Shown one piece after another: positions 22,076 to 40,480 of a stretch of DNA of 64,000 nt. Position 1 is the stretch's first letter. Each line of letters opens with the position of its first letter. The position numbers and the translations under genes were made by a program. Source of the stretch: Flavobacteriales bacterium (GTDB taxonomy: Bacteria > Bacteroidota > Bacteroidia > Flavobacteriales_D > Sanyastnellaceae); NCBI GenBank assembly GCA_018402085.1, contig JAGYJM010000002.1:992001-1056000 (forward strand). Reading direction: 5' to 3'. Under the pieces are notes generated by a model. It was given only the letters and a program-made list of their open reading frames with translations. It was not told the origin of the DNA and did no database searches.

Positions 22076-23080
22076 TCAAAGGTAATCAGGACAGAGGCGG
22101 CGACGAATTACCGGGGGCTCGAATTTTCGGAGAATATAGACAATACTCAATTCAAGCCCTCCACGACCGGCACTTGCCGGACGTAGGTCACTGGTATTGA
22201 TGTCATAACTTACACCTACCCGCCAGTCATCGTAATGTACACCTGCCAGGATATAACCGGCATCACGTGTGCGCCAATAGATTCCTCCAAAAACTGCCCG
22301 AAACAGCCCCCGTGACTCATTCATGACATACCGGGCTCCGGCTCCTGGAATGAACTCTGTATAGGTTCCTTGTCGTGAGAGCAAAAGCCCGCCCATCGCA
22401 TCCCATTCTTCGTTGATCTGACGAACACCGAATGCAGTAAGAGAAAAACGCATGTCGAGATTGATCGATGGGTCATCGAAGAAGCTTTGTTCCGGACGGT
22501 TCAGGTGGTGAAGGCTGATTCCCGCAGTAAGTTCATTTCGGCGATCTTCCCGGTAATGCCAGGCAAAGCCTACATTCAGGTTTACGTGCGCACGCGCCTC
22601 ACGGGTGTATTGTTCGTTGGGATCCGTGTTGGGGTCAAAGGCAAAGCCGTTCCATTGATTGTCATAATTGAGGTCGCTGTAATCAATGGCCCTGTGGGTA
22701 ACTCCCATCTGTAAGCCCGCAAAAAACGAATGCGCCGAATCTGCAGAAGCCGCTATACGGTATGAGGCTGCAAGATCTGCCCTGAATGTATTCAATCGGG
22801 AGTCTCCGGCGCGGTCTTGATAAAGCGACAGCGCCGCGCCGAGCGCATCACGCTCAAGCGCACCGTTGACGTCTGCACTAAAACCTATAGTGGAGTACGG
22901 AATGGTGACTGACCGCCATTGTGTGCGCTGGTTTGCGATGAAACGAGCGTCGCCGTCAAACACCCCGGCGAGTGCAGGGTTGTAAACCATTGGCGCAACC
23001 TCGAATTGTGAAAAATGGATGTCTTGCGCAACGAGTATGGTCGTCCAGAATACGCCGATGATGGTGAAAACGCCTTTCAT
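22076..23080 (-). CDS. PorP/SprF family T9SS-associated outer-membrane protein
   Basis: 334 residues. Signal peptide (FTIIGVFWTTILVAQ) then the family N-terminus DIHFSQFEVAPMVYNPALAG. NQRTQWRSVTIPYSTIGFSA and many amphipathic strands support an outer-membrane barrel of the PorP/SprF family. Its start overlaps by 4 bases the stop of the large protein with a gliding-motility-type C-terminal domain. That coupling is typical: the barrel is thought to anchor the partner or help its export through type IX secretion. Confidence 0.92.
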   Translation of the reverse strand: MKGVFTIIGVFWTTILVAQDIHFSQFEVAPMVYNPALAGVFDGDARFIANQRTQWRSVTIPYSTIGFSADVNGALERDALGAALSLYQDRAGDSRLNTFRADLAASYRIAASADSAHSFFAGLQMGVTHRAIDYSDLNYDNQWNGFAFDPNTDPNEQYTREARAHVNLNVGFAWHYREDRRNELTAGISLHHLNRPEQSFFDDPSINLDMRFSLTAFGVRQINEEWDAMGGLLLSRQGTYTEFIPGAGARYVMNESRGLFRAVFGGIYWRTRDAGYILAGVHYDDWRVGVSYDINTSDLRPASAGRGGLELSIVYILRKFEPPVIRRRLCPDYL

Positions 23081-26000
23081 CGGATGAGTGTGATGTTACC
23101 TTTTTCAAAATAGGTATCACCTCCTTCGCAGAACGCTTCGAGGTAGTACACGAAAACCGCAGGGTCGGCCGGGCGACCCTTGTAAGTACCATCCCAACCA
23201 ACAACTAAGCTGTTGGTCTCAAATACTTTTTCACCCCAACGATTGTATATGACAAAGTTCAGATCGGTGATATTGTTTCCTCTCACATAGAGCTTGTCAT
23301 TGTTATCATTGCCGTCAGGAGTAAAGGCATTTGGTACGTAAATACTCGGCGGGCCGCAGACAAAATCGAATACCCGCACCTGAACAGAATCTGTGTACAG
23401 GCATTCTCCGTCAGCAACGGTGAGGTAGAAAGTGGTTGTTTGCTGCGGATTTGCCTCGGTTTCGGCGAGGTTGGGATCTTCTACAGAATCGTCAGGAAAC
23501 CAAGTGTAATCATAGCCCTCCGGTGTAGCGGTCAAGGTAGTGAAATCACCTGCGGTGATGATGTCAGGATCGGCGCTTGCGGTGACCGATGCAGGGTCAA
23601 TTCCGCTGGCTGAAACAAAAATGCTGCCTTCAATGACGCAGTCTTCTCCGTCAGAAGCAATCAGGCTGATTTCAACGTCTTCAGTGACAATAGCTTGAAT
23701 AGAGGGGGTACCTTGTCCATTGATGATCAGATCTGTTGGAGACCACACAAGGTCAAAATTTGGCAGGTTATTCTGCAGGGTCACCGTAACCGTATCTCCT
23801 GCGCATACTACAAGGTCTTCTCCAAGATCGAGCGCACCAAGTGAAAAGCTGACGGAGATAACTTCTATAAGAGTGCATCCATTGGCTGCCGCTTGCACGT
23901 AGTAGTTACCTTCTTCTTCAATAAGTACCTGTACACTCGTAGCGTCATCACCTGAAGCAATCACATTGGTAAAGTCAGGGTCGTCAGACCAGGTGAATTC
24001 TGCGGCATCATTTTCAGAGGATGCCTGCAGGGTAACGGTTTCTCCAGGACCACAAAGAACGATGTCATCAGAAGCTGTGAGACTGAGGTTGGTGACTTCA
24101 ATCGTCTGAATAAGAGTGTCAACGCAAGCACCGCCTTCAATAAGCAGGGTATAGGTGGTGTTCTCTTCAGGCGAAACTGAAACTATCGGGTTCTGGTTGT
24201 CAGGGGCAGATAGCGGCGGTAACCACTCGTAGGTGAAGCCAGGCACGATCTGCTCGGGGCCGATTTCGATGCTGTCACCAGCGCACAATTCTGCCAAAGC
24301 TGCCGTTTGAGTTACCGGAATCTGAACGTCAATAGTGCGGAAGAGGGTATCAGTGAAATTACAGGTTTCAGGATTGTTGGCTACAAGCATTATCTCGTAT
24401 GTGCCGGGCGCATCATAGGTGTGCACCGGATTTGTAAGGCTAGTGGTAGTGCCGTCGCCAAAATCCCAGAAGAAATCCTGAGAAGTGGTACTGTTGTTCT
24501 GGAACTGAATCGGACTGTTAATGCAGGCTTCTGGTTCAGCGAAGAAGTCAGCAACCGTAATGGGCAGCTGAAAGTCAAACTTGAAAACACCGTTGTTACA
24601 ACTGCTGTTGTTGACCGGTCCAACAGCGTCAGCAGGGAAGATCGGAAAGTCGTCGTTTCCTCCACAGCCGGCGCAGACTGACTGGTAGATCTGCCCTTTT
24701 CGGTTGAACCTACTGGTACCGCCATCAACATGTTCACTGCTTTGGTTCCCCCCGAAGAACGATCCAAAAACAATGTCGCTGGCATCGTCTTCAATCACCA
24801 GCAAATAGAAATCAGAGCCATCTGTACTAGACTGGTAAGCATCAGGAGTGGTGTCCATACCCGTCGTGAATCCTGTGTCAAAACTTGCATTGGTATTGCC
24901 ACCCCAGCCCGAGAGATAAATCTTACCACAAACATCTACAAGAAAGGCGGTAGGAGAGAGGTTGCAGGTGCCGTCACCGGTACCGAACCGGGTTGACCAT
25001 GCCACACCTGAGAGGCCGCCAGTGAACTTGGTAATGAGCATTCCGCTGTTCGGGGAGGCGTAGTCGGCATTGAGAATAAACTCATTGCTTCCGGCGAGAG
25101 TTTGTCCATAAGCATGTGCAACATCCGCATCGTCTACATCTACGAAATAAAACTGATCGTAATCGTTTGAGCCGAAATAGGTACCCTCCAGTATGGTGCT
25201 GCCGTTTGCGGTCAGCCTTGCCAGGAAACCGTCAGCGTCGCCGCCACCGAATGCTTGCTGAAAGCCATCATTCCCCAGTGGCATGCCGCCGGCATTCGTG
25301 CCGCCGCAGATGTAAATATCGTCATCTGACCGCACTGCAAGACTGTAAACTCCCTGGTCACCGGGAGCGCCGAAGTAAGTGCTGTAGATCAGTCCGTCAA
25401 GGTCTGGTGTCAGCTTCGTGATCACACCGTCTAATCCACCGGCAATTGCCGGCTGCAGCGCGTTTTCTGTAGGGTAGTCATTGCTGAAGGTACAGCTCGC
25501 GATATAAATATTGTCTTCATCGTCGATTTCAACTTCGCCCCTGAACTCATCAGCATAGTTGAAGCGCAGGTCAGCGACACTGTTGACACCGTCATTGGCT
25601 GAACCTCCCAGAAAGGTTGATGCGGCCAGTGCGCCGCCGTCGGCGGTGAATTTGGTAACAATCAGGTCTGCCCCGTTGACATACTCAACCCCTACACCGG
25701 AAGGCGCCACATTACTTCCTCCGGAAAAAGATGCGGAGAATGCCCCGGCTGTAACCGGAAAGTCAGGTGAACTTGTGGTACCCATGACGATCAACTCTCC
25801 GGCTGAGTTAACGATTAAGGAGTGTGGAAGCTCATCGTTGCTGCCACCGAGATAGGTCGAGTAGACGCGATCTGTGCCGTCAAGGGTGTATTTAGTCAGG
25901 GTGATGTCAGTACCTACAAGGCCGCCCTGGCCATCTCCGCCGGCCCATTCCTGCTGGTAGGCCCCTACTGAAGTCGGGTAACCGTCTCCGAAGGAGATGC

Positions 26001-26817
26001 TACCGGCATAAAGAAAACCTTCGTCGTCATAGGTGGCCGTAAAGCCGAAGTTGTTGGCAGTGCTTCCTGAATAGGTAGAGAAGAGCAATACCGGGTCAAT
26101 GGTCAATGCGTATGCAGGGTCATATCCGTCAGGAAAAAAGAATTGCACGCTGTTTCCGTTCAGGAAATACTGACATTCTACCCGCTCTCTGCTACCGTTG
26201 ATGTTTTGCCATGCAATAGGCGCCTGCTCAGTGACTTCGCCTACACTGGTGTATACCACAAGCCTCCCGTTGCGTAGTTTGAGTGAATCTGCACCTTCAT
26301 AGTGAAGTTGAATTACCGAGGCATCTGCACCAGCTTCTACCAACAGGTCATACTTCAATGCATGGTCGCTGAAATAGACATCCATGTCTACGCCGGGATA
26401 AAGCTCGTTATAGCTCACTTTTTGCCACTCCTGAACCGATGATCGCCATTTTTCGGGGGCATTGCCGAGGTAGAAGTTGTGACGAAGCGGTTCAGGTTCT
26501 TCAAAATGTACTTCAGCATTCTCCGAAGCGCCCGTAAAGTGGGTTCGAAAGACATGTCCGCGAAGGCGGGTCGCTCCTGCTACCGGTGCTTCATCGGTGC
26601 CGTGCATCGCTACAATCGGCGAAAGGTCGGTCATGTGGTAGGTGAAGCGGTTTTTTTCCAGCCAGAAATGGCTGGATGCTACAGTTGTTCGCCCAACCAC
26701 ATGGTCAGGCCACTGTCCGGCATTCTCAATGATGCCTGCAGTTTTCTGCGCACTTGCCGGTACACACGCAATGGCGTACAGGCTAATGAGCATTCCTATG
26801 GATTTAATTCGATGCAC
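23077..26817 (-). CDS. T9SS type B cargo with SBBP propeller and PKD domains
   Basis: 1246-residue exported surface protein. Signal peptide MLISLYAIACVPASA follows a short N-region. The domains run as follows: an N-terminal domain found in Bacteroidota SBBP proteins (GIIENAGQWPDHVVGR), SBBP-type beta-propeller repeats (about 240-720), a PKD domain (about 775-850; FFWDFGDGTTTSLTNPVHTY), and several Ig-like segments. The C-terminal gliding-motility-associated domain (about 1165-1246; YVPNAFTPDGNDNNDKLYV, FVIYNRWGEKVFETN) is the type B sorting signal. The start is GTG 26817, or ATG 26793 for a minimal signal peptide. TAAATTGC four bases before GTG is a possible -7 variant. It is coupled to the downstream PorP gene. 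Confidence 0.93.
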   Translation of the reverse strand: MHRIKSIGMLISLYAIACVPASAQKTAGIIENAGQWPDHVVGRTTVASSHFWLEKNRFTYHMTDLSPIVAMHGTDEAPVAGATRLRGHVFRTHFTGASENAEVHFEEPEPLRHNFYLGNAPEKWRSSVQEWQKVSYNELYPGVDMDVYFSDHALKYDLLVEAGADASVIQLHYEGADSLKLRNGRLVVYTSVGEVTEQAPIAWQNINGSRERVECQYFLNGNSVQFFFPDGYDPAYALTIDPVLLFSTYSGSTANNFGFTATYDDEGFLYAGSISFGDGYPTSVGAYQQEWAGGDGQGGLVGTDITLTKYTLDGTDRVYSTYLGGSNDELPHSLIVNSAGELIVMGTTSSPDFPVTAGAFSASFSGGSNVAPSGVGVEYVNGADLIVTKFTADGGALAASTFLGGSANDGVNSVADLRFNYADEFRGEVEIDDEDNIYIASCTFSNDYPTENALQPAIAGGLDGVITKLTPDLDGLIYSTYFGAPGDQGVYSLAVRSDDDIYICGGTNAGGMPLGNDGFQQAFGGGDADGFLARLTANGSTILEGTYFGSNDYDQFYFVDVDDADVAHAYGQTLAGSNEFILNADYASPNSGMLITKFTGGLSGVAWSTRFGTGDGTCNLSPTAFLVDVCGKIYLSGWGGNTNASFDTGFTTGMDTTPDAYQSSTDGSDFYLLVIEDDASDIVFGSFFGGNQSSEHVDGGTSRFNRKGQIYQSVCAGCGGNDDFPIFPADAVGPVNNSSCNNGVFKFDFQLPITVADFFAEPEACINSPIQFQNNSTTSQDFFWDFGDGTTTSLTNPVHTYDAPGTYEIMLVANNPETCNFTDTLFRTIDVQIPVTQTAALAELCAGDSIEIGPEQIVPGFTYEWLPPLSAPDNQNPIVSVSPEENTTYTLLIEGGACVDTLIQTIEVTNLSLTASDDIVLCGPGETVTLQASSENDAAEFTWSDDPDFTNVIASGDDATSVQVLIEEEGNYYVQAAANGCTLIEVISVSFSLGALDLGEDLVVCAGDTVTVTLQNNLPNFDLVWSPTDLIINGQGTPSIQAIVTEDVEISLIASDGEDCVIEGSIFVSASGIDPASVTASADPDIITAGDFTTLTATPEGYDYTWFPDDSVEDPNLAETEANPQQTTTFYLTVADGECLYTDSVQVRVFDFVCGPPSIYVPNAFTPDGNDNNDKLYVRGNNITDLNFVIYNRWGEKVFETNSLVVGWDGTYKGRPADPAVFVYYLEAFCEGGDTYFEKGNITLIR

Positions 26818-31570: not shown

Positions 31571-33286
31571 TTAGAACTGGAAGTAGATGAACGGTTGCAA
31601 GTCAGCGCTGAGAATCTGGTACATGATCACAACAGCTATGACAACGGTAAACATTTGAAGAGCCAGTGGCGCACCAGCGAATTTCTCCCGATACCATGCT
31701 TTCCAGGAAGAAGGAAGCCAGTGAACGATGAAGCCAAAGAGCATCACAGCGAAGACGGGGGCAAATCCGACGATGACTTCAGGTGCAATCGAGAAGTCAA
31801 TGTTACCAAGCTGTTTAAGCATGGTATTTGCAGTGAACCACTCTTCAAGGATGTTATGCTTTTCATTCAGATTCGCCCATGTGTTTGAAGAACCGCTTCG
31901 GAACCATATCCGAGTGAACGAGATAAAGTTGAAGGTCAGGAAAATGGCCCAGACACGGTTGTACCATTTTGACTTGTCACCCCACGGACTGACTTTGCTC
32001 CACAATTTATAAATCACAATGCCCAATCCGTTCAGGCCGCCCCACAGTACAAAGTTCCAGCTTGCCCCATGCCACAAACCGCCCAGTAACATGGTCATCA
32101 TCAGGTTGATGTTGGTGGTATACCATTGATTGAGTCCTTTAAAAAACTGAGCGAGGATGATGGCTACCACGATTCCACCCGCGAACCAGGTGAGGGTGAG
32201 GTATGAGCCGCTCAATAAGAAAACAAAGAAGGCAACGAAACCAAGAGATATGTAAGTGAAAAGTGAACCGCCCCGGTTGCCTCCCATAGGAATATAGAGG
32301 TAGTCTTTAAGCCAGGTCGAGAGTGAGATGTGCCAGCGTTTCCAGAAATTTCCACAGCTATCGGCTTTGTATGGTGAATTGAAGTTGGTGGGCAGCGTGA
32401 AGCCCAGCAATAAGGCAACACCGATGGCAATATCAGTATAACCGCTGAAGTCTGCATACACCTGAAGAGAGTATCCATAGAGCGCCATGAGGTTCTCAAA
32501 GCCAGTATAACTGCCGGGGTTTGCAAAAATGCGATCTACAAAGTTGACCGCGATGTAGTCTGCGAGCAAGACCTTCTTTAGTAGTCCGTTGAGTATCCAG
32601 AATAGGGCCAGACCGAATTGAGCACGTGTAAGATTATAGGGCTGATACAGCTGCGGAATAAAGTCAGCGGCGCGAACAATCGGGCCTGCAACGAGCTGCG
32701 GAAAGAACGATACATAGAAGCCAAAATCCAGGATGTTTCTCACCGGTTTGATATGTCCGCGGTATACATCTATGGCGTATGACATGGTTTGAAAGGTGAA
32801 GAAGGAGATCCCGACAGGAAGCAGAATTCTATCAGCCCTAAAAGAAGCGCCAAATGCTTCATTAAAGAAACCTGCAAAATGATTAACCGGGTGCCATTCG
32901 GTTCCGATCAGGTTATTGAAAGAATCGGCGAAGAAGTATGCGTACTTGAAGTAAAACAGCACCAGCAGGTTGATGGTGATGCTCACTGCCAGCCACCCTT
33001 GCTTTTTGGCACCCTTAGGTGCCTTGTCTATGGCAAAGCCAATCAGGTAATCGGTAAGGGTTGAGAATAAGAGAATAGAAAAGAAGAAACCACTCGTTTT
33101 GTAATAAAAAAACAAGCTTACCAGAAAGAGAAAGGCATTTCGCAGCGCCCGCTTTCTGAAGATCGCAGAGTAAATGAGCAAGACGATGCCGAAGAAGCCC
33201 CAGAAATACAGCCGGGTAAAGATCAGCGGCGCATCTTCACGATAGAGTAAAATCTCACTCCAGGAGGGCAGATCAATCTCATTCAT
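31571..33286 (-). CDS. MBOAT family O-acyltransferase (AlgI/PatA-like)
   Basis: 571 residues, about 11-12 membrane helices, typical of the AlgI/DltB/PatA branch. Marks are the helix YADFSGYTDIAIGVALLLG, FNSPYKADSCGNFWKRWHIS, LSTWLKDYLYIPMGGNRGG, and the catalytic His in LLGGLWHGASWNFVLWGG. Such proteins pass acetyl groups across the inner membrane to an SGNH partner that modifies a polymer. ATG 33286 overlaps the stop of the preceding SGNH gene by 8 bases (TATGAATGA), indicating coupling. It is the last gene of a four-gene operon with two SGNH proteins and a LysM protein. Confidence 0.93.
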   Translation of the reverse strand: MNEIDLPSWSEILLYREDAPLIFTRLYFWGFFGIVLLIYSAIFRKRALRNAFLFLVSLFFYYKTSGFFFSILLFSTLTDYLIGFAIDKAPKGAKKQGWLAVSITINLLVLFYFKYAYFFADSFNNLIGTEWHPVNHFAGFFNEAFGASFRADRILLPVGISFFTFQTMSYAIDVYRGHIKPVRNILDFGFYVSFFPQLVAGPIVRAADFIPQLYQPYNLTRAQFGLALFWILNGLLKKVLLADYIAVNFVDRIFANPGSYTGFENLMALYGYSLQVYADFSGYTDIAIGVALLLGFTLPTNFNSPYKADSCGNFWKRWHISLSTWLKDYLYIPMGGNRGGSLFTYISLGFVAFFVFLLSGSYLTLTWFAGGIVVAIILAQFFKGLNQWYTTNINLMMTMLLGGLWHGASWNFVLWGGLNGLGIVIYKLWSKVSPWGDKSKWYNRVWAIFLTFNFISFTRIWFRSGSSNTWANLNEKHNILEEWFTANTMLKQLGNIDFSIAPEVIVGFAPVFAVMLFGFIVHWLPSSWKAWYREKFAGAPLALQMFTVVIAVVIMYQILSADLQPFIYFQF

Positions 33287-34637
33287 AACCTTCGGTAGCA
33301 GGCGTTTCTTGATTTCTTGCGTCACTCAAATCACGCGAATGCAATGCAAGCCAGTTGCCGTAGTCGTTCATCAAAGCGGCATACATTAATTCAGCTTGCA
33401 GGTAATAGCCGCTGCGGGTGAAGTGGATGCGATCATTTTTTGCTAATCCGGCACGGTCCCAGTCATCAATAGATCTGTAACCACCCATTACCTCGAAAAG
33501 ATCCCATACGGCAGCGTTTTCGCGATCCGCTAATTCCATCATTGCTTCCTGAACGATTTTGCCATTCGGATTGGGCCTGCGTTTACGGTACCACGAGTCA
33601 TTGTTGGTCAGGAAAAGGAAAGCCGTATTCGGATTGGCTGAGGAAAACCGTTGCATCAGGCTGTCGTAGCGGTCTTTGAATGCTTCTTTGTCGAATCTTC
33701 CGGCAGATGTATAGGCGTCGTTGATGCCTATACCGAATACGACCAGGTCTGCATTCAGACTTTTTAGCTGGGCCTCCATGTCATCGCAACGGAGGTAGCT
33801 TCGGGTGCTGGCTCCATTCACACCGATTTCGTTGTAGGTAACCGACGGCAGGTCTCTGCCCAGATAGATGCCTTGAACGGTGGCGCTTGCGGCCAGGCTG
33901 TCTTTTTTCACAAATCGCCAGGCCAAGGTGTCTACCGAGGCTCTGAAGCGCCATTCATAATACCCCTCTGTGGTGTTGCGCCACACTGAATCAATTTCTG
34001 CGCTGTCAATCCACTCCGGGGTAAAATGACGTTCAGTCATATCTGTGTACAGACGCACAAAATCGCTTCTGAATAAACTACTGTCGCTTCTCAGGGCTAC
34101 AAAATCAAGTCTTGCTGAATCGGTTTGCGTGCGCACAGACATTCCGCTCATGCCCCAGTTGCATTCGTGGCGGTTGTGGGCGCATCTACAGCCTTCCCAA
34201 TCTCCTGTACCTTCACTGCTCGTGTAAATGGTACTGTTGGTGCCGGCAACCCTGAACGGGAAGCATAGTCCACGCTCTTCCGTAACTCCCCAGGCGAGCC
34301 CTTCGAACAATTCACGCATACGATGTCCAATCGCACCTGCCTGTACATGTGAACCACCAATATGAACGATATTTACCTTGCCATGACCTTGAAACAAGAG
34401 GCGTTGCATTTTGCGGTAAAGACTGTGAAAAGCCGCTGAATCTCCCGGGTATTTGATTTCGTTTTCGTCAAGCTTGAGAAAGGGATATTGCTCATGTAAC
34501 TCATTCAGTGCGAGAAATGAAGCTGGTTGAAAGCTCACGCGCTCAGAACTTAAGCGCGCAGGAGGGAGGCCGGCCAACACCATCATCATCAATACGCCCG
34601 CAAGTTGAACCCCCTTATTCTTCACGCTCCCTTTCAT
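33279..34637 (-). CDS. SGNH/GDSL-type exported esterase or acetyltransferase, B
   Basis: 452 residues from ATG 34637, with signal peptide (VQLAGVLMMMVLAGLPPA). The SGNH blocks are IVHIGGSHVQAGAIGHRM (nucleophile S96), GVNGASTRSYL, VVFGIGINDAY (block III Asn) and NDRIHFTRSGYYLQAE (Asp-x-x-His). The catalytic set appears complete. With the MBOAT protein next door it could receive acetyl groups and transfer them to a sugar polymer, as PatB or AlgX/J do, or act as a deacetylase. The start overlaps the preceding SGNH gene by 23 bases. Confidence 0.85.
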   Translation of the reverse strand: MKGSVKNKGVQLAGVLMMMVLAGLPPARLSSERVSFQPASFLALNELHEQYPFLKLDENEIKYPGDSAAFHSLYRKMQRLLFQGHGKVNIVHIGGSHVQAGAIGHRMRELFEGLAWGVTEERGLCFPFRVAGTNSTIYTSSEGTGDWEGCRCAHNRHECNWGMSGMSVRTQTDSARLDFVALRSDSSLFRSDFVRLYTDMTERHFTPEWIDSAEIDSVWRNTTEGYYEWRFRASVDTLAWRFVKKDSLAASATVQGIYLGRDLPSVTYNEIGVNGASTRSYLRCDDMEAQLKSLNADLVVFGIGINDAYTSAGRFDKEAFKDRYDSLMQRFSSANPNTAFLFLTNNDSWYRKRRPNPNGKIVQEAMMELADRENAAVWDLFEVMGGYRSIDDWDRAGLAKNDRIHFTRSGYYLQAELMYAALMNDYGNWLALHSRDLSDARNQETPATEGYE

Positions 34638-36072
34638 CCAATAATGCTTTCGTAAACAGTTCTGCAATCCGGCGCGCACCTTTGGGTGTAAAATGCACGT
34701 AGTCTTTTCCTGCCAACGGTGGATCGGCTTTTACCCATGCACTCATCGAATTGGCACCCCCCATAACTTCATAAATATCCCAGAAGCCGCAAGACGTTTC
34801 GAATGCCGCCTTCTTTAATTCATTTCGTACGACTTCGAGGTAGGGGTAGGTTACAAAGTTCTCCCCTTCTTTGTATGCCATATCTGAGGGGCCGATCAGG
34901 ATAAAGGCCGCTTCTGGCATCAGGGCTTTCAGGTAAAGAATCTGACTTTGCATCCAGCGCCCGTAGTTCTCGGCTTTGGTTGAGTCAGAGATATAGGGTA
35001 CAGTGTTTCCGCCATATTGCAGTAAAACAAGACCGGGGTTGAGTTCACGGTACTGCTTTCGCAGTTGGTCACGACTGATACGCTTGAAAATCGTTCCTGA
35101 ACTGCCTCGCATGGGGATGTTGTCTACCTGCACACCAGAAGGGCCTTCAAGGGCTATTCCATAGCTTTCAATTGACCCGCTGAACGAGAAGCGCAGTTCC
35201 TCAGGAGTGCCGGGCAAGGTTAGTGACCATGCCCGGTATCCGGAGCTGTCTTGCAGTAATAATCGGTCTATGAGGCTGTCATTGTAGTAGCACTCGGCAA
35301 TAAGGGAGTCAGAAAAGTGTCCGAGAAAAAGCTTTGCTGTCGACCATGTCTTTGACAATTTGTAGGTGCGCGGAGACGGACGAAAGATCAGGTTACCTCC
35401 GGTAGAATCAGCTTCTGCGAAAGTGCCCATCAAACCGTAACGCTCATGCTTGATGGTGGTATCTCGCTTTCCGTAAACGGTGTAGCGCTGCCAGTTTTCG
35501 TCAGCCTCCTGTTCAATGGCAATAGATGGAACCACTTCAACAGGTGGAATCAAACCTGGTCCATTTCCACCATAACGTTTCTGGAGTTCATTGCGCAGGT
35601 AGCCTGTGATACGGTCACCCTCAATTTGTGAATCGCCGTAATGAAGCACCCGCAGTTTCTGATTTTGCGATTTCGCACTTTCAAGGCCCTCAAAAAATAC
35701 CTGAAGATTTTCGATGCCGTTTGCGCCTTGTTGTATTTCAAGCAGTTGTCTTCGGCGCTCAAGCTCTGCCTCGCGAAGGCTGTCTTGCAATGCTTTTTCT
35801 ACTTCAGCGTTCGCAGCCGAAGTATCAGTAGGCGATGCTGCACTGTCTTCTTGCAGAATGGCATCGTAGCCTTTCAGAAAATCGTCAGCATCCGCAATTC
35901 CCTCCGGCTCGTTGGCAACGAGCTCATCGAGGGTGACAAATGATAAGGTGGTACCTGCCATGCTGATTCCTTCTTCGGGCCAGACAAAGGAGAGCAGCAC
36001 ACAGGCAACTCCGGTAATGAGCAGCGCCATCAGGGTGCGCATTGGATGTTGCGGACGTTGGTCAGCGTTCAC
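34615..36072 (-). CDS. SGNH/GDSL-type exported esterase or acetyltransferase, A
   Basis: 485 residues. An N-terminal membrane anchor (about 12-30; LMALLITGVACVLLSFVW) is followed by a coiled-coil-like helix (about 85-115). The SGNH domain has VLHYGDSQIEGDR (Ser 148), NIPMRGSSGTIF, LVLLQYGGNTV and GKDYVHFTPKGARR (D457, H460). Catalytic residues appear intact. It starts with GTG overlapping the LysM gene stop by 4 bases. It shares the VMGG and DxxHFT features with the second SGNH protein, so the pair probably arose by an old duplication. Whether it is a transferase or esterase is open. Confidence 0.85.
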   Translation of the reverse strand: MNADQRPQHPMRTLMALLITGVACVLLSFVWPEEGISMAGTTLSFVTLDELVANEPEGIADADDFLKGYDAILQEDSAASPTDTSAANAEVEKALQDSLREAELERRRQLLEIQQGANGIENLQVFFEGLESAKSQNQKLRVLHYGDSQIEGDRITGYLRNELQKRYGGNGPGLIPPVEVVPSIAIEQEADENWQRYTVYGKRDTTIKHERYGLMGTFAEADSTGGNLIFRPSPRTYKLSKTWSTAKLFLGHFSDSLIAECYYNDSLIDRLLLQDSSGYRAWSLTLPGTPEELRFSFSGSIESYGIALEGPSGVQVDNIPMRGSSGTIFKRISRDQLRKQYRELNPGLVLLQYGGNTVPYISDSTKAENYGRWMQSQILYLKALMPEAAFILIGPSDMAYKEGENFVTYPYLEVVRNELKKAAFETSCGFWDIYEVMGGANSMSAWVKADPPLAGKDYVHFTPKGARRIAELFTKALLDEREREE

Positions 36073-37487
36073 GGCTTATAAATCTTCAGTTGTTGTCCAG
36101 GGCGAATGTCTTCTGTTATTCCGTTCCATTTCATGATGTTGTCAGCGCTTACCCCGGGAAATTTTCGTGCGATCAGCCAGAGTGATTCTCCTGATTGAAC
36201 GGTGTACATGCGATATTCTCCGGGAGGTGCTTGTGCAGTGACTTCGTTTTTTTGCTTCTCTTGATTTTTGGGTTGACGGTTCTTTTCTGCATTCGGTACA
36301 CCCGAATCATTCGAGACGGGGGTTGCGCCGTAAATCAACAGCTCCTGGCCAGCGTAAATACGGTCGCCACGAAGATTATTCCAGTTGCGCAGGTCGCTGA
36401 CCCTCACACCATGACGTTCAGCAATTAAGCCGAGAACATCACCGCTGCGCACCTTGTAGATTCGGGTTTCACCTTCCGGTTCGCGGCGTTTTCCGGCTTC
36501 ATTCATGGCCGTCATGGTTTGCTCATCCGGTTTGTAGCAGTAGAGGCTGTCTTCATTTGAAAGGTAAACCGGTACCTGCTCAGCAGGAATTAGAAAAGGT
36601 ACATTTCGGTGCTGCGCCGGGATGCGATCACCGTGGTACGCAGGGTTTATACCGCGCAAAAGCGCGGGATGCAAGTCTAGTTGAGACTCAAGCGCCCCGT
36701 AATAAAGAGGTTCATTCACGGGAACAGCGTCGTATTTATTGAGGATGCGAAGCCAGGTGATAAGGTGATGGTTGGCCTCTGTATGTTTGAACAAGCGAAT
36801 GCTTACGTGCATCATGGTCATGCGGTGAACCAGATCAGTATCTCCGGGCTGGTCAATATTGAAGCGGTCTGCAAAAGGAACGCCTCTGAGAAAGGCCACG
36901 ATCACACGAAGGTGATCACCTTCATAGCGTTCATGGTATGTTTTCAGGAGCTTACATGCCGCCTGTGTAGCAAGATCCGGTGATTTACGCTCGTCTACAA
37001 ACTTGTCAACGCGGAGGCCCAATGCTCGTGCCCTCGGTAAATCCATCGCCCATAAACCGGCCTTGTTGGCACCATCGTCATACGCGCTGTTCAGTCCTGA
37101 CAAGATCAGGGGCAGAAATTTGTAATCTGTTGCTAAGCCTGTATCTGCCAGATGGCGTTCAAATAAGGGGAAGTAAAGGTCGCTCAGGAGTCGCATCGCA
37201 TAGAGCAGTTCGCAGTCTTGCCTGAAGTAATCATTGATGCAGGCCGACTCTTTTGACTTATCTCGTCCGAATGGGTGCAGGGCTTCATCTACCACAGAGG
37301 GTTCCGGAATCTCTTCGAGAAGTTCGGGCGGACAATTCAGCTGAATTTCATCCGGGCCTGCCTGATCCAGAAAATGCTGTACGAGCCATTGCTCTGCACC
37401 GGTTTCAAGTACGCGGGTGAAGTTCGCATCCTGCGCTTTTGCGCAGAATGAAAAAAGCAGCATTACCGATATGAACACGCGACGCAT
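36069..37487 (-). CDS. LysM protein with degenerate lytic-transglycosylase domain
   Basis: 472 residues with signal peptide (FISVMLLFSFCAKA). Residues about 104-210 follow the MltD pattern (FPLFERHLADTGLATDYKFL, GLWAMDLPRARALGL, VDKFVDERKSPDLATQAA). The catalytic Glu position of the usual LPIVESAF motif is L129 in FLPLILSGLNS, and the AAYNAG motif reads VAFLRG. The enzyme site therefore looks lost. Two LysM domains follow, at 343-387 and 427-471, which bind peptidoglycan. As first gene of an operon with two SGNH proteins and an MBOAT, it may be a wall-targeting subunit. Dispersed hairpin copies lie at 36653-36675 and in the signal peptide (37422-37446). Confidence 0.88.
   Translation of the reverse strand: MRRVFISVMLLFSFCAKAQDANFTRVLETGAEQWLVQHFLDQAGPDEIQLNCPPELLEEIPEPSVVDEALHPFGRDKSKESACINDYFRQDCELLYAMRLLSDLYFPLFERHLADTGLATDYKFLPLILSGLNSAYDDGANKAGLWAMDLPRARALGLRVDKFVDERKSPDLATQAACKLLKTYHERYEGDHLRVIVAFLRGVPFADRFNIDQPGDTDLVHRMTMMHVSIRLFKHTEANHHLITWLRILNKYDAVPVNEPLYYGALESQLDLHPALLRGINPAYHGDRIPAQHRNVPFLIPAEQVPVYLSNEDSLYCYKPDEQTMTAMNEAGKRREPEGETRIYKVRSGDVLGLIAERHGVRVSDLRNWNNLRGDRIYAGQELLIYGATPVSNDSGVPNAEKNRQPKNQEKQKNEVTAQAPPGEYRMYTVQSGESLWLIARKFPGVSADNIMKWNGITEDIRPGQQLKIYKP
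36653..36675 (+). repeat. Dispersed hairpin element, copy 8 (antisense in LysM gene)
   Basis: Stem CGCGC / GCGCG, loop AAAA, tail GGATGCAAG, antisense to the LysM gene. Confidence 0.65.
37422..37446 (-). repeat. Dispersed hairpin element, copy 9 (encodes signal-peptidase site)
   Basis: Minus strand: stem CTGCGC / GCGCAG, loop AAAA, tail GATGCGAAC. It encodes CAKAQDAN, which contains the AKA cleavage site of the LysM protein. Nearly the same DNA recurs at 57635-57659. Confidence 0.8.
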
Positions 37488-37700: not shown

Positions 37701-37724
37701 TTGTCGAAAAGTGACTTATTGGCA

Positions 37725-38441
37725 ATGAAAGGGAAGAAATCAAATAGAATGAACTGTCTTATTGTTGAAGACGACCGGATGTCGCGCGAGATGCTTAGCG
37801 ATCTCTGTGCGAAGATTGAAGGCTTAGATGTGCGGTCTGTTGATACCGCACTGAATGCCATTGCAGACCTTGAGGGCAAAAGGTATGACCTGGTCTTTCT
37901 GGACATTGAAATGCCGGATATGAGCGGTATTGATCTCATGCGCACGCAAGAGAAAATGCCTCCGGTGATCATAACCTCGGCAAAGAAAGAGTACGCTTAC
38001 GACGCCTTTGAATTCGACGTGGTTGATTACCTGCAGAAGCCGGTATCATTGCCTCGCCTTATTAAGGCGGTTCAAAAAGTGCGCAAGCGCACAATAGCTG
38101 AACCCGAAGAGAAGCAGACAAAAGCTACGGATCACATGTTCATCAAGGTTGATGGAAAGCATATTCGGCTTGAACTCAATGAAATACTTGCGATTACGAG
38201 TATGCGTGACTACGTGATCTTTCAGCTTGAAAGTGAGCGTCATATTGTGCACAGCACCTTGAAAAGCATTGAAGAGAAGCTGGAGAGTGATAAGCGGTTC
38301 TACAAAGTACATCGCAGCTACATGATCAATGTCAATCACATCGTTGATATGGATGAACGCTCTGTAGTGGTCGGCAAGCAAGTAATACCTATTTCAAGAT
38401 CCAACCGTCAGGCATTTATGGAGTACCTGAATATGCTCTGA
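37725..38441 (+). CDS. LytTR-family response regulator
   Basis: 238 residues. An N-terminal receiver domain (NCLIVEDDRMSREMLSDLC with the acidic pair; phosphoacceptor Asp in YDLVFLDIEMPDMSGIDLM; Lys in DVVDYLQKPVSLPRLIKAV) is followed by a LytTR DNA-binding domain (about 130-238; LNEILAITSMRDYVIFQ, FYKVHRSYMINVNHIVDMD). Typical of LytR/AlgR regulators in Bacteroidota, which pair with a 7TM or 5TM-LytS type sensor kinase. No kinase is adjacent, so it is an orphan here. ATG 37749 is an alternative start. Targets unknown; the O-acetylation operon is divergent and could be one. Confidence 0.92.
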   Translation: MKGKKSNRMNCLIVEDDRMSREMLSDLCAKIEGLDVRSVDTALNAIADLEGKRYDLVFLDIEMPDMSGIDLMRTQEKMPPVIITSAKKEYAYDAFEFDVVDYLQKPVSLPRLIKAVQKVRKRTIAEPEEKQTKATDHMFIKVDGKHIRLELNEILAITSMRDYVIFQLESERHIVHSTLKSIEEKLESDKRFYKVHRSYMINVNHIVDMDERSVVVGKQVIPISRSNRQAFMEYLNML

Positions 38442-38847: not shown

Positions 38848-39636
38848 TTATGCTGTTGCGCCTTCTTGCGGTTTACTGCTGCTAATGGCGATGCTGTAAA
38901 CAACCAGACCGAAGCCGATCTTGTTAACGGCATCCGCAATGTTGTAGAAGAGGTCTACATTCGATGACTCCCATCCGAGACCTACATTCAGCCATCCTCC
39001 TGGCATGCACATGTAACCGATCGGGTAGATCGCCCATCCTACAAGTACGAACCATGCTAGGGTGCGAACACCTCTCTTTACCTGAGGGTTGTCGCTCTTT
39101 TCAGATAGCTTGCGAACTTCACCGAACCATGCGGTGTAGAGTACATAAAGGTACCCGAGGGTAGACAATGCTCCCCAGATGAATGAGTGCATGGTGGCTC
39201 CGTCAGCCGGTGATCCGTCAGCGTTCAATGGCACAAAAGCCTCGCCGAAGTAACCGGTAACGAGCATGAAGGCAGAAGCAATGATCAGCTTCCACATCAG
39301 GCCGATTTTCGCCCCGGCTGCGCGAGTTAAGAGGTAGAACTCTACACACATCAACGGCACGGTGAGCGTCCAGTCAATGTAGCGCAGAGCGGTCGGGTTG
39401 CTACCGGTTGCTGCGTAATAATCACGCATGTAATAGTAGTGTACCGCCGCGATACCGGTAATAAGACCAGAAACGAGGAGAGACGTTTTCCATTTGTCGC
39501 TCACTCTACTGCGCTCAAAAAAGAAGAAAATTGAAGAGGCGAACATCGCCATGTAGCCTGTAAAGAATGTAAAGGCTACCGGATCATCCTGTTTGATTTC
39601 AACCAGGTTGAGGATAAAGGAAGGTATAAAGTCCAT
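38848..39636 (-). CDS. Proteorhodopsin-type light-driven proton pump
   Basis: 262 residues, seven helices. Helix C reads RYIDWTLTVPLMCVEFYLL, with D88 (proton acceptor), T92 and E99 (donor): the DTE motif of outward H+ pumps. Met96 sits at the spectral-tuning position and predicts green absorption, as in other flavobacterial forms. H66 in AAVHYYYM matches the conserved His partner of the acceptor. The Schiff-base Lys is K239 in NIADAVNKIGFG, with D235 as counter-ion. It would generate proton-motive force in light at the inner membrane. No retinal or carotenoid synthesis gene is adjacent. It is monocistronic, with a strong terminator. Confidence 0.96.
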   Translation of the reverse strand: MDFIPSFILNLVEIKQDDPVAFTFFTGYMAMFASSIFFFFERSRVSDKWKTSLLVSGLITGIAAVHYYYMRDYYAATGSNPTALRYIDWTLTVPLMCVEFYLLTRAAGAKIGLMWKLIIASAFMLVTGYFGEAFVPLNADGSPADGATMHSFIWGALSTLGYLYVLYTAWFGEVRKLSEKSDNPQVKRGVRTLAWFVLVGWAIYPIGYMCMPGGWLNVGLGWESSNVDLFYNIADAVNKIGFGLVVYSIAISSSKPQEGATA

Positions 39637-39793: not shown

Positions 39794-40480
39794 TTAATGA
39801 CTTCTGTGTTTTCGTTGGCCGAGTGGCCGGTCACCCAAAAGGAAGATATACATGAAAATGGCATGGCAGGCAATAGCGCCAAAGGTATGCCACAAAAAGT
39901 GCGTACCCATAGGAAGCCAGCCCTCAGCATCATAGATGCGAAAGAACAACGCAAGACAGAATGAGACCAGCGCCATAACCACCCAAATGCTGTATTTACC
40001 GTCGCTCTTGAAAATAACGAGCATAACCGGCAGCAAGATCAGTAGTGCCATAATGGTGTAGCCTATATTGGTGGAGAGAGAGGGAGGTATGAGGGCATAT
40101 AAGCTAAACTGCAATGCGAGTCCACCTGACAGAAAAACCAGTCCGACCCACCACCGTCGCGAAACGAGGTACACAAAATGATAGCTCCCCATGAGGGTGA
40201 GAATCAGTATCGGGAGCCAATCCATAAGGAGAAACACCTGAGAAACGCGAAAGGCATGGTATAAGGTGCCACCAATGCCGCCAATCGCCAGAATAGGAAC
40301 AGCAATGCTTAAAAGCTTATACCTCCTGAAACGGCCTTTCAGTTTCATGTACCACCAGGCCACAATGATCAGGAACAGAAAAGCTGAAGCCGCATTCCAC
40401 GGCTCAGCAATCACATGATCGAGGTTGGTTTCAAAGTACTTGGGTCCGCCATCCGGCAAGCGAGTTACCAGCTCATTCAT
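39794..40480 (-). CDS. Ceramidase-like (CREST superfamily) membrane hydrolase
   Basis: 228 residues, about seven membrane helices. EPWNAASAFLFLIIV, GGTLYHAFRVSQVFLLMDW and the C-terminal MGTHFLWHTFGAIACH carry the Glu/Asn, Asp and His residues in the positions expected for zinc-dependent alkaline ceramidase/PAQR-like hydrolases. Substrate unknown; it may act on lipids in the inner membrane. It starts 8 bases after the stop of the SRPBCC gene, and the two with YkuK form a likely operon. Assignment to the superfamily rests on motif reading, not a search. Confidence 0.65.
   Translation of the reverse strand: MNELVTRLPDGGPKYFETNLDHVIAEPWNAASAFLFLIIVAWWYMKLKGRFRRYKLLSIAVPILAIGGIGGTLYHAFRVSQVFLLMDWLPILILTLMGSYHFVYLVSRRWWVGLVFLSGGLALQFSLYALIPPSLSTNIGYTIMALLILLPVMLVIFKSDGKYSIWVVMALVSFCLALFFRIYDAEGWLPMGTHFLWHTFGAIACHAIFMYIFLLGDRPLGQRKHRSH

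Follow-up and report, generated by a model that had tools for sequence, protein, structure and literature searches.

O-acetylation of peptidoglycan governs where lytic transglycosylases and lysozyme cut the wall. The closest described gene arrangement in Bacteroidota is the ape1b-ape1c-pat cluster, reported for Bacteroides and Porphyromonas by Weadge et al. (2005), who also measured O-acetylation levels of 69.4% for the peptidoglycan of B. fragilis and 27.0% for that of B. thetaiotaomicron (PMC1199599); a 2024 review gives 56-66% for three Bacteroides species (PMC11382707). For the PatA/PatB/Ape1 systems of Neisseria and Campylobacter, the C-terminal FxYxxF has been described as the motif on which PatA becomes acetylated, and a DUF459 domain and the replacement of the block II Gly as the hallmarks of PatB (PMC12148441). 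The lytic transglycosylase (LT) LtgA of Neisseria binds Ape1 and raises its activity on p-nitrophenyl acetate, which is not an LtgA substrate (PMC7083599). Here, an operon is described in which a cluster of the Weadge type is preceded by an MltD-like LT predicted to be catalytically dead. It lies in a window (the whole stretch of DNA analysed) of 64,000 nt from a Flavobacteriales bacterium (Sanyastnellaceae), positions 992,001-1,056,000 of contig JAGYJM010000002.1 in assembly GCA_018402085.1.

The operon occupies positions 31571-37487 on the minus strand and consists of four open reading frames (ORFs) with successive overlaps, encoding from the 5' end the MltD-like head (LT), the first and second SGNH proteins (SG1 and SG2) and an MBOAT protein. 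Genomes and loci or stretches are denoted by G and L numbers, respectively.

36069..37487, minus strand: pseudo-MltD (LT), 472 amino acids, from the ORF list, Pfam and an AlphaFold model
34615..36072, minus strand: SG1, Ape1-like SGNH protein with the motif GDSQ and an N-terminal hydrophobic stretch, 485 amino acids, putative PatB-like role
33279..34679, minus strand: SG2, Ape1-like SGNH protein with a CBM35-like insert and the motif GGSH, 466 amino acids
31571..33325, minus strand: PatA-like MBOAT acyltransferase, 584 amino acids, from Pfam

The LT and SG1 genes overlap by 4 bases, and the two longer overlaps (SG1/SG2 and SG2/MBOAT) hinge on the choice of start codon. The four overlapping genes of the first-pass annotation (a LysM protein, two SGNH proteins and an MBOAT) were confirmed as ORFs and by Pfam, with no sign of an artefact.

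The head was matched by Pfam to LysM (E value 1.3e-28, two stretches) and SLT (E 2.6e-6), and a signal peptide was apparent, as judged by eye. Its AlphaFold model (predicted local distance difference test, pLDDT, 84.7) gave P. aeruginosa MltD as the best Foldseek match (E 1.1e-12) and aligned with the MltD structure 8rhe over 243 residues with a Z score of 19.5 and a root-mean-square deviation of 4.1, the next family reaching Z 13.4. The SLT fold with C-terminal LysM domains typical of MltD was present by model and Pfam, and both the fold and the two LysM domains are common to P. aeruginosa MltD (8rhe, 8rhf) and the head. The two differ in the active site, as the head lacks the catalytic Glu of the (V/I)ES motif, carrying Leu129 in the column where its two paralogues in this genome, the LT proteins L002 and L003, have Glu, and as the AYNxG motif reads AFLRG.

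36333..36458, minus strand: first LysM domain of LT, residues 344-385
36081..36200, minus strand: second LysM domain of LT, residues about 430-469
37101..37103, minus strand: Leu129 codon replacing the catalytic Glu of LT, from the alignment with Glu-bearing paralogues

The head is, on this alignment and model, an MltD-type lytic transglycosylase turned pseudoenzyme with both LysM domains intact. Its resemblance to MltD, the replacement of the catalytic Glu by Leu129, the loss of AYNAG and the integrity of both LysM domains had all been proposed at first pass, and all of them stood.

Conservation was examined in 82 LT matches from relatives and named loci, representing 67 distinct proteins. 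The Glu was lost in 28 of them (replaced by Leu in 20, Ala in 5, and Met, Ile and Thr in one each) and kept in 39. Twenty further stretches, giving 21 rows, contributed two LT without and 17 with Glu, bringing the running total to 30 Glu-less among 86 readable proteins, two rows (L269 and one L270 piece) being unreadable at the catalytic column. All 28 Glu-less sequences have lost the Asn of AYN and retain the GLW Gly as well as both the Asp and the Arg of DxR; in the first LysM, 11 positions show 84-100% conservation across 25-26 proteins. The ratio of nonsynonymous to synonymous substitution (dN/dS), computed with a purpose-written Nei-Gojobori script for one species pair (G001 and G002), was 0.066 for LT, 0.015 for SG1, 0.037 for SG2 and 0.030 for MBOAT. 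The Glu-less LT is, to judge from its sequence, a conserved pseudoenzyme. No conserved active-site Glu was found at the cluster itself, all 16 LT genes adjoining it in the window's order lacking the residue (G003 was included among them though its contig ends there).

In the LT tree, the 28 Glu-less proteins formed one side of a branch (support 96/89) and six active cluster heads formed a separate group (97/96), but a joint clade of Glu-less LT and active cluster MltD was not rejected in a topology test (approximately unbiased test, p 0.348). The pseudo-MltD may or may not descend from the active cluster MltD, and the Glu loss may have a single origin; placement is made unsure by long branches, and the alignment included the catalytic column. 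The pseudo form appears not to be confined to the window's order, because L142 and L155, both Bacteroidales, and L183, from the window's class, have Glu-less heads as well, with caution again called for by long branches.

The co-occurrence of the pseudo-MltD with SG2 was analysed in the window's family, represented by 37 genomes (G000-G036). The cut-off for SG2 presence (E up to 1e-100) was set after the search results were known, and G005, G021 and G024, whose SG2-like hits were weaker (E 1e-53 to 1e-58), were scored as lacking SG2. The Glu-less LT and SG2 were each present in 25 genomes, both in 24, LT alone in one, SG2 alone in one and neither in 11 (Fisher p 1.6e-7, uncorrected for kinship). 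G014 and the 11 genomes with neither each yielded one LT match at E 1e-20, which keeps its Glu. In 10 of the 24 genomes with both (G008, G009, G010, G013, G018, G020, G027, G028, G029 and G032), the LT gene is on another contig or far from SG1/SG2. G015 and G033 carry SG1 and MBOAT without SG2 or the pseudo-MltD, and a different LysM protein is encoded beside their SG1 (L091, L088). As these counts and the G015/G033 pattern indicate, the pseudo-MltD tracks SG2, not the MBOAT-SG1 pair, in the window's family, and SG2, possibly the esterase, is therefore the better guess for its partner. The earlier proposal of a subunit docking the acetyltransferases to the wall has to be altered accordingly as to the partner, and a docking role as such is kept here in conditional form.

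The distribution of cluster forms was surveyed in named loci (L103-L155) gathered by searching with an MBOAT profile; of these 53 loci, 51 have an MBOAT above 450 bits. L156-L182 were left out of the count, and genes were taken as near if they lay on the same strand no more than 6 kb away. Upstream of the 51 MBOAT genes, SG1 and SG2 were found together in 30 loci, SG1 alone in nine, SG2 alone in two and neither in 10. The 30 loci with both comprised five with an LT head, four with LysM inside SG2, two with another LysM protein and 19 with none of these; of the nine with SG1 alone, two had it fused to MBOAT and three had an LT head. An active MltD, with Glu and AYN intact, preceded SG1 in six named loci (L103, L120, L126, L128, L129 and L130). 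The SG1-MBOAT fusions behind active MltD are those of L126 (from 4596) and L128 (from 8339), of 1021 and 1055 amino acids. A LysM domain was located between blocks I and II of SG2 in 10 loci (L131, L132, L133 and L150, all four from Flavobacterium, and L210-L213, L215 and L216), and two LysM domains lay behind the SGNH domain in L094 and L228.

In a sample of the phylum, SG1 was detected in 48 of 247 genomes (E up to 1e-20). Fifty stretches from SG1-bearing genomes of the phylum included one with an LT head (L183, Glu lost) and six with LysM inside SG2, 14 being without an MBOAT over the cut-off. In the order, 154 of 249 sampled genomes had SG1 (E up to 1e-60). All four genes were found together within 6 kb in 13 of 34 relatives' stretches (L063-L096), and G011 has one more such cluster by profile coordinates. 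The survey of the four-gene order in Bacteroidota suggested at first pass accordingly recovered it among relatives, and elsewhere the six active heads and many clusters without such a head.

Both SGNH proteins gave GDSL_2 matches in Pfam, SG1 with E 1.2e-6 (29.6 bits, under the curated cut-off of 32.9) and SG2 with E 1e-15. In profile searches, 4k3u, listed as a peptidoglycan O-acetylesterase and known as N. meningitidis Ape1, was matched by SG1 (E 4.8e-30, the alignment covering the two ends) and by SG2 (E 1.1e-32, nearly the whole chain aligned), whereas PatB (8tlb) reached E 0.2 with the SG1 profile and was absent from the 37 SG2 profile matches up to E 1. The SG2 model (pLDDT 84.1) matched Campylobacter Ape1 (8gld) with E 3.1e-22 and a TM-score (TMt) of 0.77, and 4k3u with E 4.0e-21 and TMt 0.82, compared with E 1.2e-3 for PatB. 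By sequence and model, SG2 has the SGNH fold, the inserted CBM35-like domain and the Ser/Asp/His residues of Ape1, these residues being invariant. The triads are intact in both proteins, with the following nucleophiles.

35629..35631, minus strand: SG1 nucleophile Ser148, kept in 21 of 21
34350..34352, minus strand: SG2 nucleophile Ser110, kept in 18 of 18

The block II Gly of the hydrolase type was retained in 20 of 21 SG1 and 18 of 18 SG2 proteins. A search for DUF459 in the window's genome returned nothing over the cut-off, the lone weak match being SG2. PatB identity was ruled out for SG1 and SG2 by this result and the retained Gly. AlgJ/AlgX identity was ruled out by the linear order of their residues (Ser, Gly, Asn, Asp/His), AlgJ and AlgX being circularly permuted, and by the Ape1 similarity. 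SG1 and SG2 are predicted Ape1-like proteins, neither PatB nor AlgJ/X. Of the first-pass comparison with the PatA/PatB and AlgI/J/X layouts, peptidoglycan as the likely target stands, and the assignment of the SGNH pair does not.

Since no PatB was found in the genome, the transferase is probably SG1 or SG2, the two Ape1-like proteins. The block II test cannot tell transferase from esterase because both proteins keep the Gly. SG1 would be the transferase and SG2 the esterase; SG1 was chosen because it occurs in the named loci nine times without SG2 and the reverse twice, and because of its fusions to MBOAT. The phylum and order samples were unusable for this choice as they were baited with SG1.

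The MBOAT protein (Pfam E 7e-24) matched only itself in its own genome at E 0.001. Both sequence features of PatA, a conserved His and a C-terminal FxYxxF, are present.

32069..32071, minus strand: conserved His419 of MBOAT, 23 of 23
31574..31591, minus strand: C-terminal FIYFQF of MBOAT (FxYxxF acyl-Tyr shuttle motif), FxYxxF end in 23 of 23

Among the collected loci, L190 and L191 have a tandem pair of MBOAT copies after SG1, and the gene order is SG1-MBOAT-SG2, not SG1-SG2-MBOAT, in L219, L221, L223, L225, L226 and L227. L116 (labelled Fibrobacter) and L118 (Thalassobius) hold MBOAT genes close to the Bacteroidota copies, which may reflect transfer or mis-binned contigs of metagenome-assembled genomes.

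Compared with the described systems, the operon has, by sequence and fold, the MBOAT gene and at least one Ape-type esterase gene of an O-acetylpeptidoglycan (OAP) cluster, and it shares with the Bacteroidota OAP clusters of Weadge et al. the order of two Ape1-type SGNH genes followed by MBOAT (PMC1199599). It differs from them in the insert of SG2, in motif I and in the added MltD-like LysM head. The Bacteroides locus L134 encodes SG1, a short SG2 (302 amino acids) and MBOAT in that order, with 32 residues from motif I to NGA in place of the 180 residues from GGSH to NGA in the window's SG2, so that the absence of a segment of about 100 amino acids after motif I, expected of Ape1c, does not apply to the latter. 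The Ape motif I GDS(H/F) is likewise missing from the window (GDSQ in SG1, GGSH in SG2), whereas L134 has GDSF and GDSH. Because of the retained insert and GGSH, the window's SG2 is not an Ape1c by the definition of Weadge et al. The match of these clusters to theirs rests on order, motifs and lengths; on this basis the SG1-SG2-MBOAT trio is a predicted variant of the described ape1b-ape1c-pat system. In the accessible part of that paper, the neighbours are a cation-efflux transporter upstream in Bacteroides and a cell wall hydrolase nearby in Zymomonas, with no LysM head. The claim that the whole combination was new does not extend to the trio. What is new is the conserved dead MltD head tracking an Ape1-like protein, which was not found described in the open-access literature searched. 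With PatA/PatB/Ape1 of Neisseria and Campylobacter, the window shares the FxYxxF tail of MBOAT and an Ape1-like SGNH protein, but its genome has two Ape1-like proteins and no DUF459 over the cut-off. LtgA-Ape1 of N. meningitidis is alike in that an LT is partnered with Ape1 and stimulates it independently of the LT's own substrate (PMC7083599); LtgA differs in being active and of another LT type, whereas the window's LT is MltD-like, predicted to be dead and operon-linked, and its contact with an Ape1-like protein would be by analogy.

We consider it rather probable that the operon is a Bacteroidota module for peptidoglycan O-acetylation and de-O-acetylation in which the pseudo-MltD places or activates SG2. 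In such a module, MBOAT would move acetyl from acetyl-CoA to the Tyr of its C-terminal FIYFQF, and SG1, anchored by its N-terminus, would accept the acetyl and put it on peptidoglycan, while the Ape1-like SG2 would remove or edit acetyl groups. The secreted pseudo-MltD would grip peptidoglycan through its two LysM domains, and perhaps also its dead groove, and would position or activate SG2 while leaving the glycan uncut. Peptidoglycan as the substrate, acetyl as the group moved, the locations of the proteins and the contact between pseudo-MltD and SG2 are all what we infer. The pseudo-MltD is proposed as a wall-held partner of SG2 because LtgA has a non-catalytic effect on Ape1, to whose enzyme type SG1 and SG2 belong; by this analogy it would anchor an Ape1-like enzyme to the wall or activate it without any catalysis of its own. 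The module is further backed by the Ape1 matches of SG1 and SG2, the His and FxYxxF tail of MBOAT, the lack of DUF459 over the cut-off, the gene order shared with Bacteroides, in which O-acetylation was measured, the co-occurrence of pseudo-MltD and SG2, the LysM domains within or behind SG2, the active MltD heads in other loci and the SG1-MBOAT fusions. More tentatively, the pseudo-LT may be a dedicated non-catalytic Ape1 partner that clamps peptidoglycan and switches or places (de-)O-acetylation, the scaffold role that LtgA combines with its own catalysis having been split off in evolution; the incorporation of LysM into SG2 would be another way to the same end.

Several observations weigh against this proposal. 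At the thresholds used, G031 has the pseudo-MltD but lacks SG1, SG2 and an MBOAT orthologue of full length, and G014 has SG2 without the pseudo-MltD (this genome is 79% complete and the contig ends there). Three genomes of the same order (G044, G045 and G055) carry the trio, in the vicinity of which a LysM partner was not found, and 19 of the 51 named MBOAT loci have SG1 and SG2 without an LT head or LysM within 6 kb, a few of them on contigs ending at SG1. The hydrolase-type Gly is kept in both SG1 and SG2, so that either could be the transferase. The CBM35-like part of Ape1 is itself thought to hold Ape1 on peptidoglycan (PMC6174289), so an extra anchor for an Ape1-like enzyme is not obviously needed. 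Weadge et al. left the role of the genes in Bacteroides still to be proved (PMC1199599), and the 2024 review credits members of the Bacteroidota with Oat-type enzymes, not Pat (PMC11382707).

A LytTR response regulator gene is located divergently to the operon in the window, and such a gene was found by Pfam near the operon in all four related loci tested as well.

37701..38441, plus strand: LytTR response regulator, divergent from the operon, from Pfam, putative regulatory role

A sodium:solute symporter gene lies downstream, and scans for promoter and terminator consensus sequences around the operon did no better than on shuffled sequence. The scan of neighbours covered 91 of 97 proteins (all but five from L070 and an overlapping ORF from L086) and took in the commoner families, 25 out of 39 in one set and 25 out of 69 in the other; among these, the 40 neighbours of eight loci included four ParB and four DUF5683 proteins. 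In L130 (3317-5625), parA, parB and a DUF5683 gene stand directly before the active MltD. Elsewhere in the window, a protein resembling bacteriorhodopsin is encoded at 38848-39636 (PF01036 with E 4.5e-43). The gene after it (39794-40480) has no Pfam match at E 0.001 and, by the look of its sequence, encodes a membrane protein. Positions 23077-26817 encode a DUF7948/PKD protein bearing a CHU_C type IX secretion signal.

The recurrent LytTR gene, and a PAS histidine kinase beside the regulator in L064, would suit a different role for the head within an ordinary O-acetylation module, namely a sensor of glycan fragments or of the wall reporting to the LytTR regulator and not to SG1/SG2. This is unlikely in our view, as Pfam shows no signalling domain in the pseudo-MltD and as the protein co-occurs with SG2 in the 10 genomes where it is encoded far from SG1/SG2. 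It is less likely still that the acceptor is an exopolysaccharide or another surface polymer, as in alginate O-acetylation, with the LysM protein being incidental. An MBOAT with two SGNH proteins is similar to AlgI/J/X in the number of genes, and relatives have further, less similar MBOATs. However, SG1 and SG2 are Ape1-like with a linear block order, unlike the permuted AlgJ/AlgX; no glycosyltransferase was found for the 91 neighbours among the commoner families considered; and recurrent neighbours of the cluster are LysM, MltD or, in L141, a glucosaminidase.

Two further explanations concern the head itself. It is very doubtful that it is still catalytic through another acid: an Asp follows GLWxL in 17 of the 28 Glu-less LT, but this new Asp is not universal and the AYN Asn is kept in none of them. 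Chance retention of a decaying gene in the operon, to which the fast evolution and long branches of the SLT-like domain might point, is hardly credible given the dN/dS of 0.066, the Gly, Asp and Arg kept in every Glu-less protein, the 11 conserved positions of the first LysM, and the retention of LT in 10 genomes where it is apart from the cluster.

If the proposed pairing of the pseudo-MltD with SG2 is right, this naturally inactive LT, with its link to Ape1-like enzymes, would offer a means to probe LT scaffolding apart from cutting, the question raised by the LtgA-Ape1 work.

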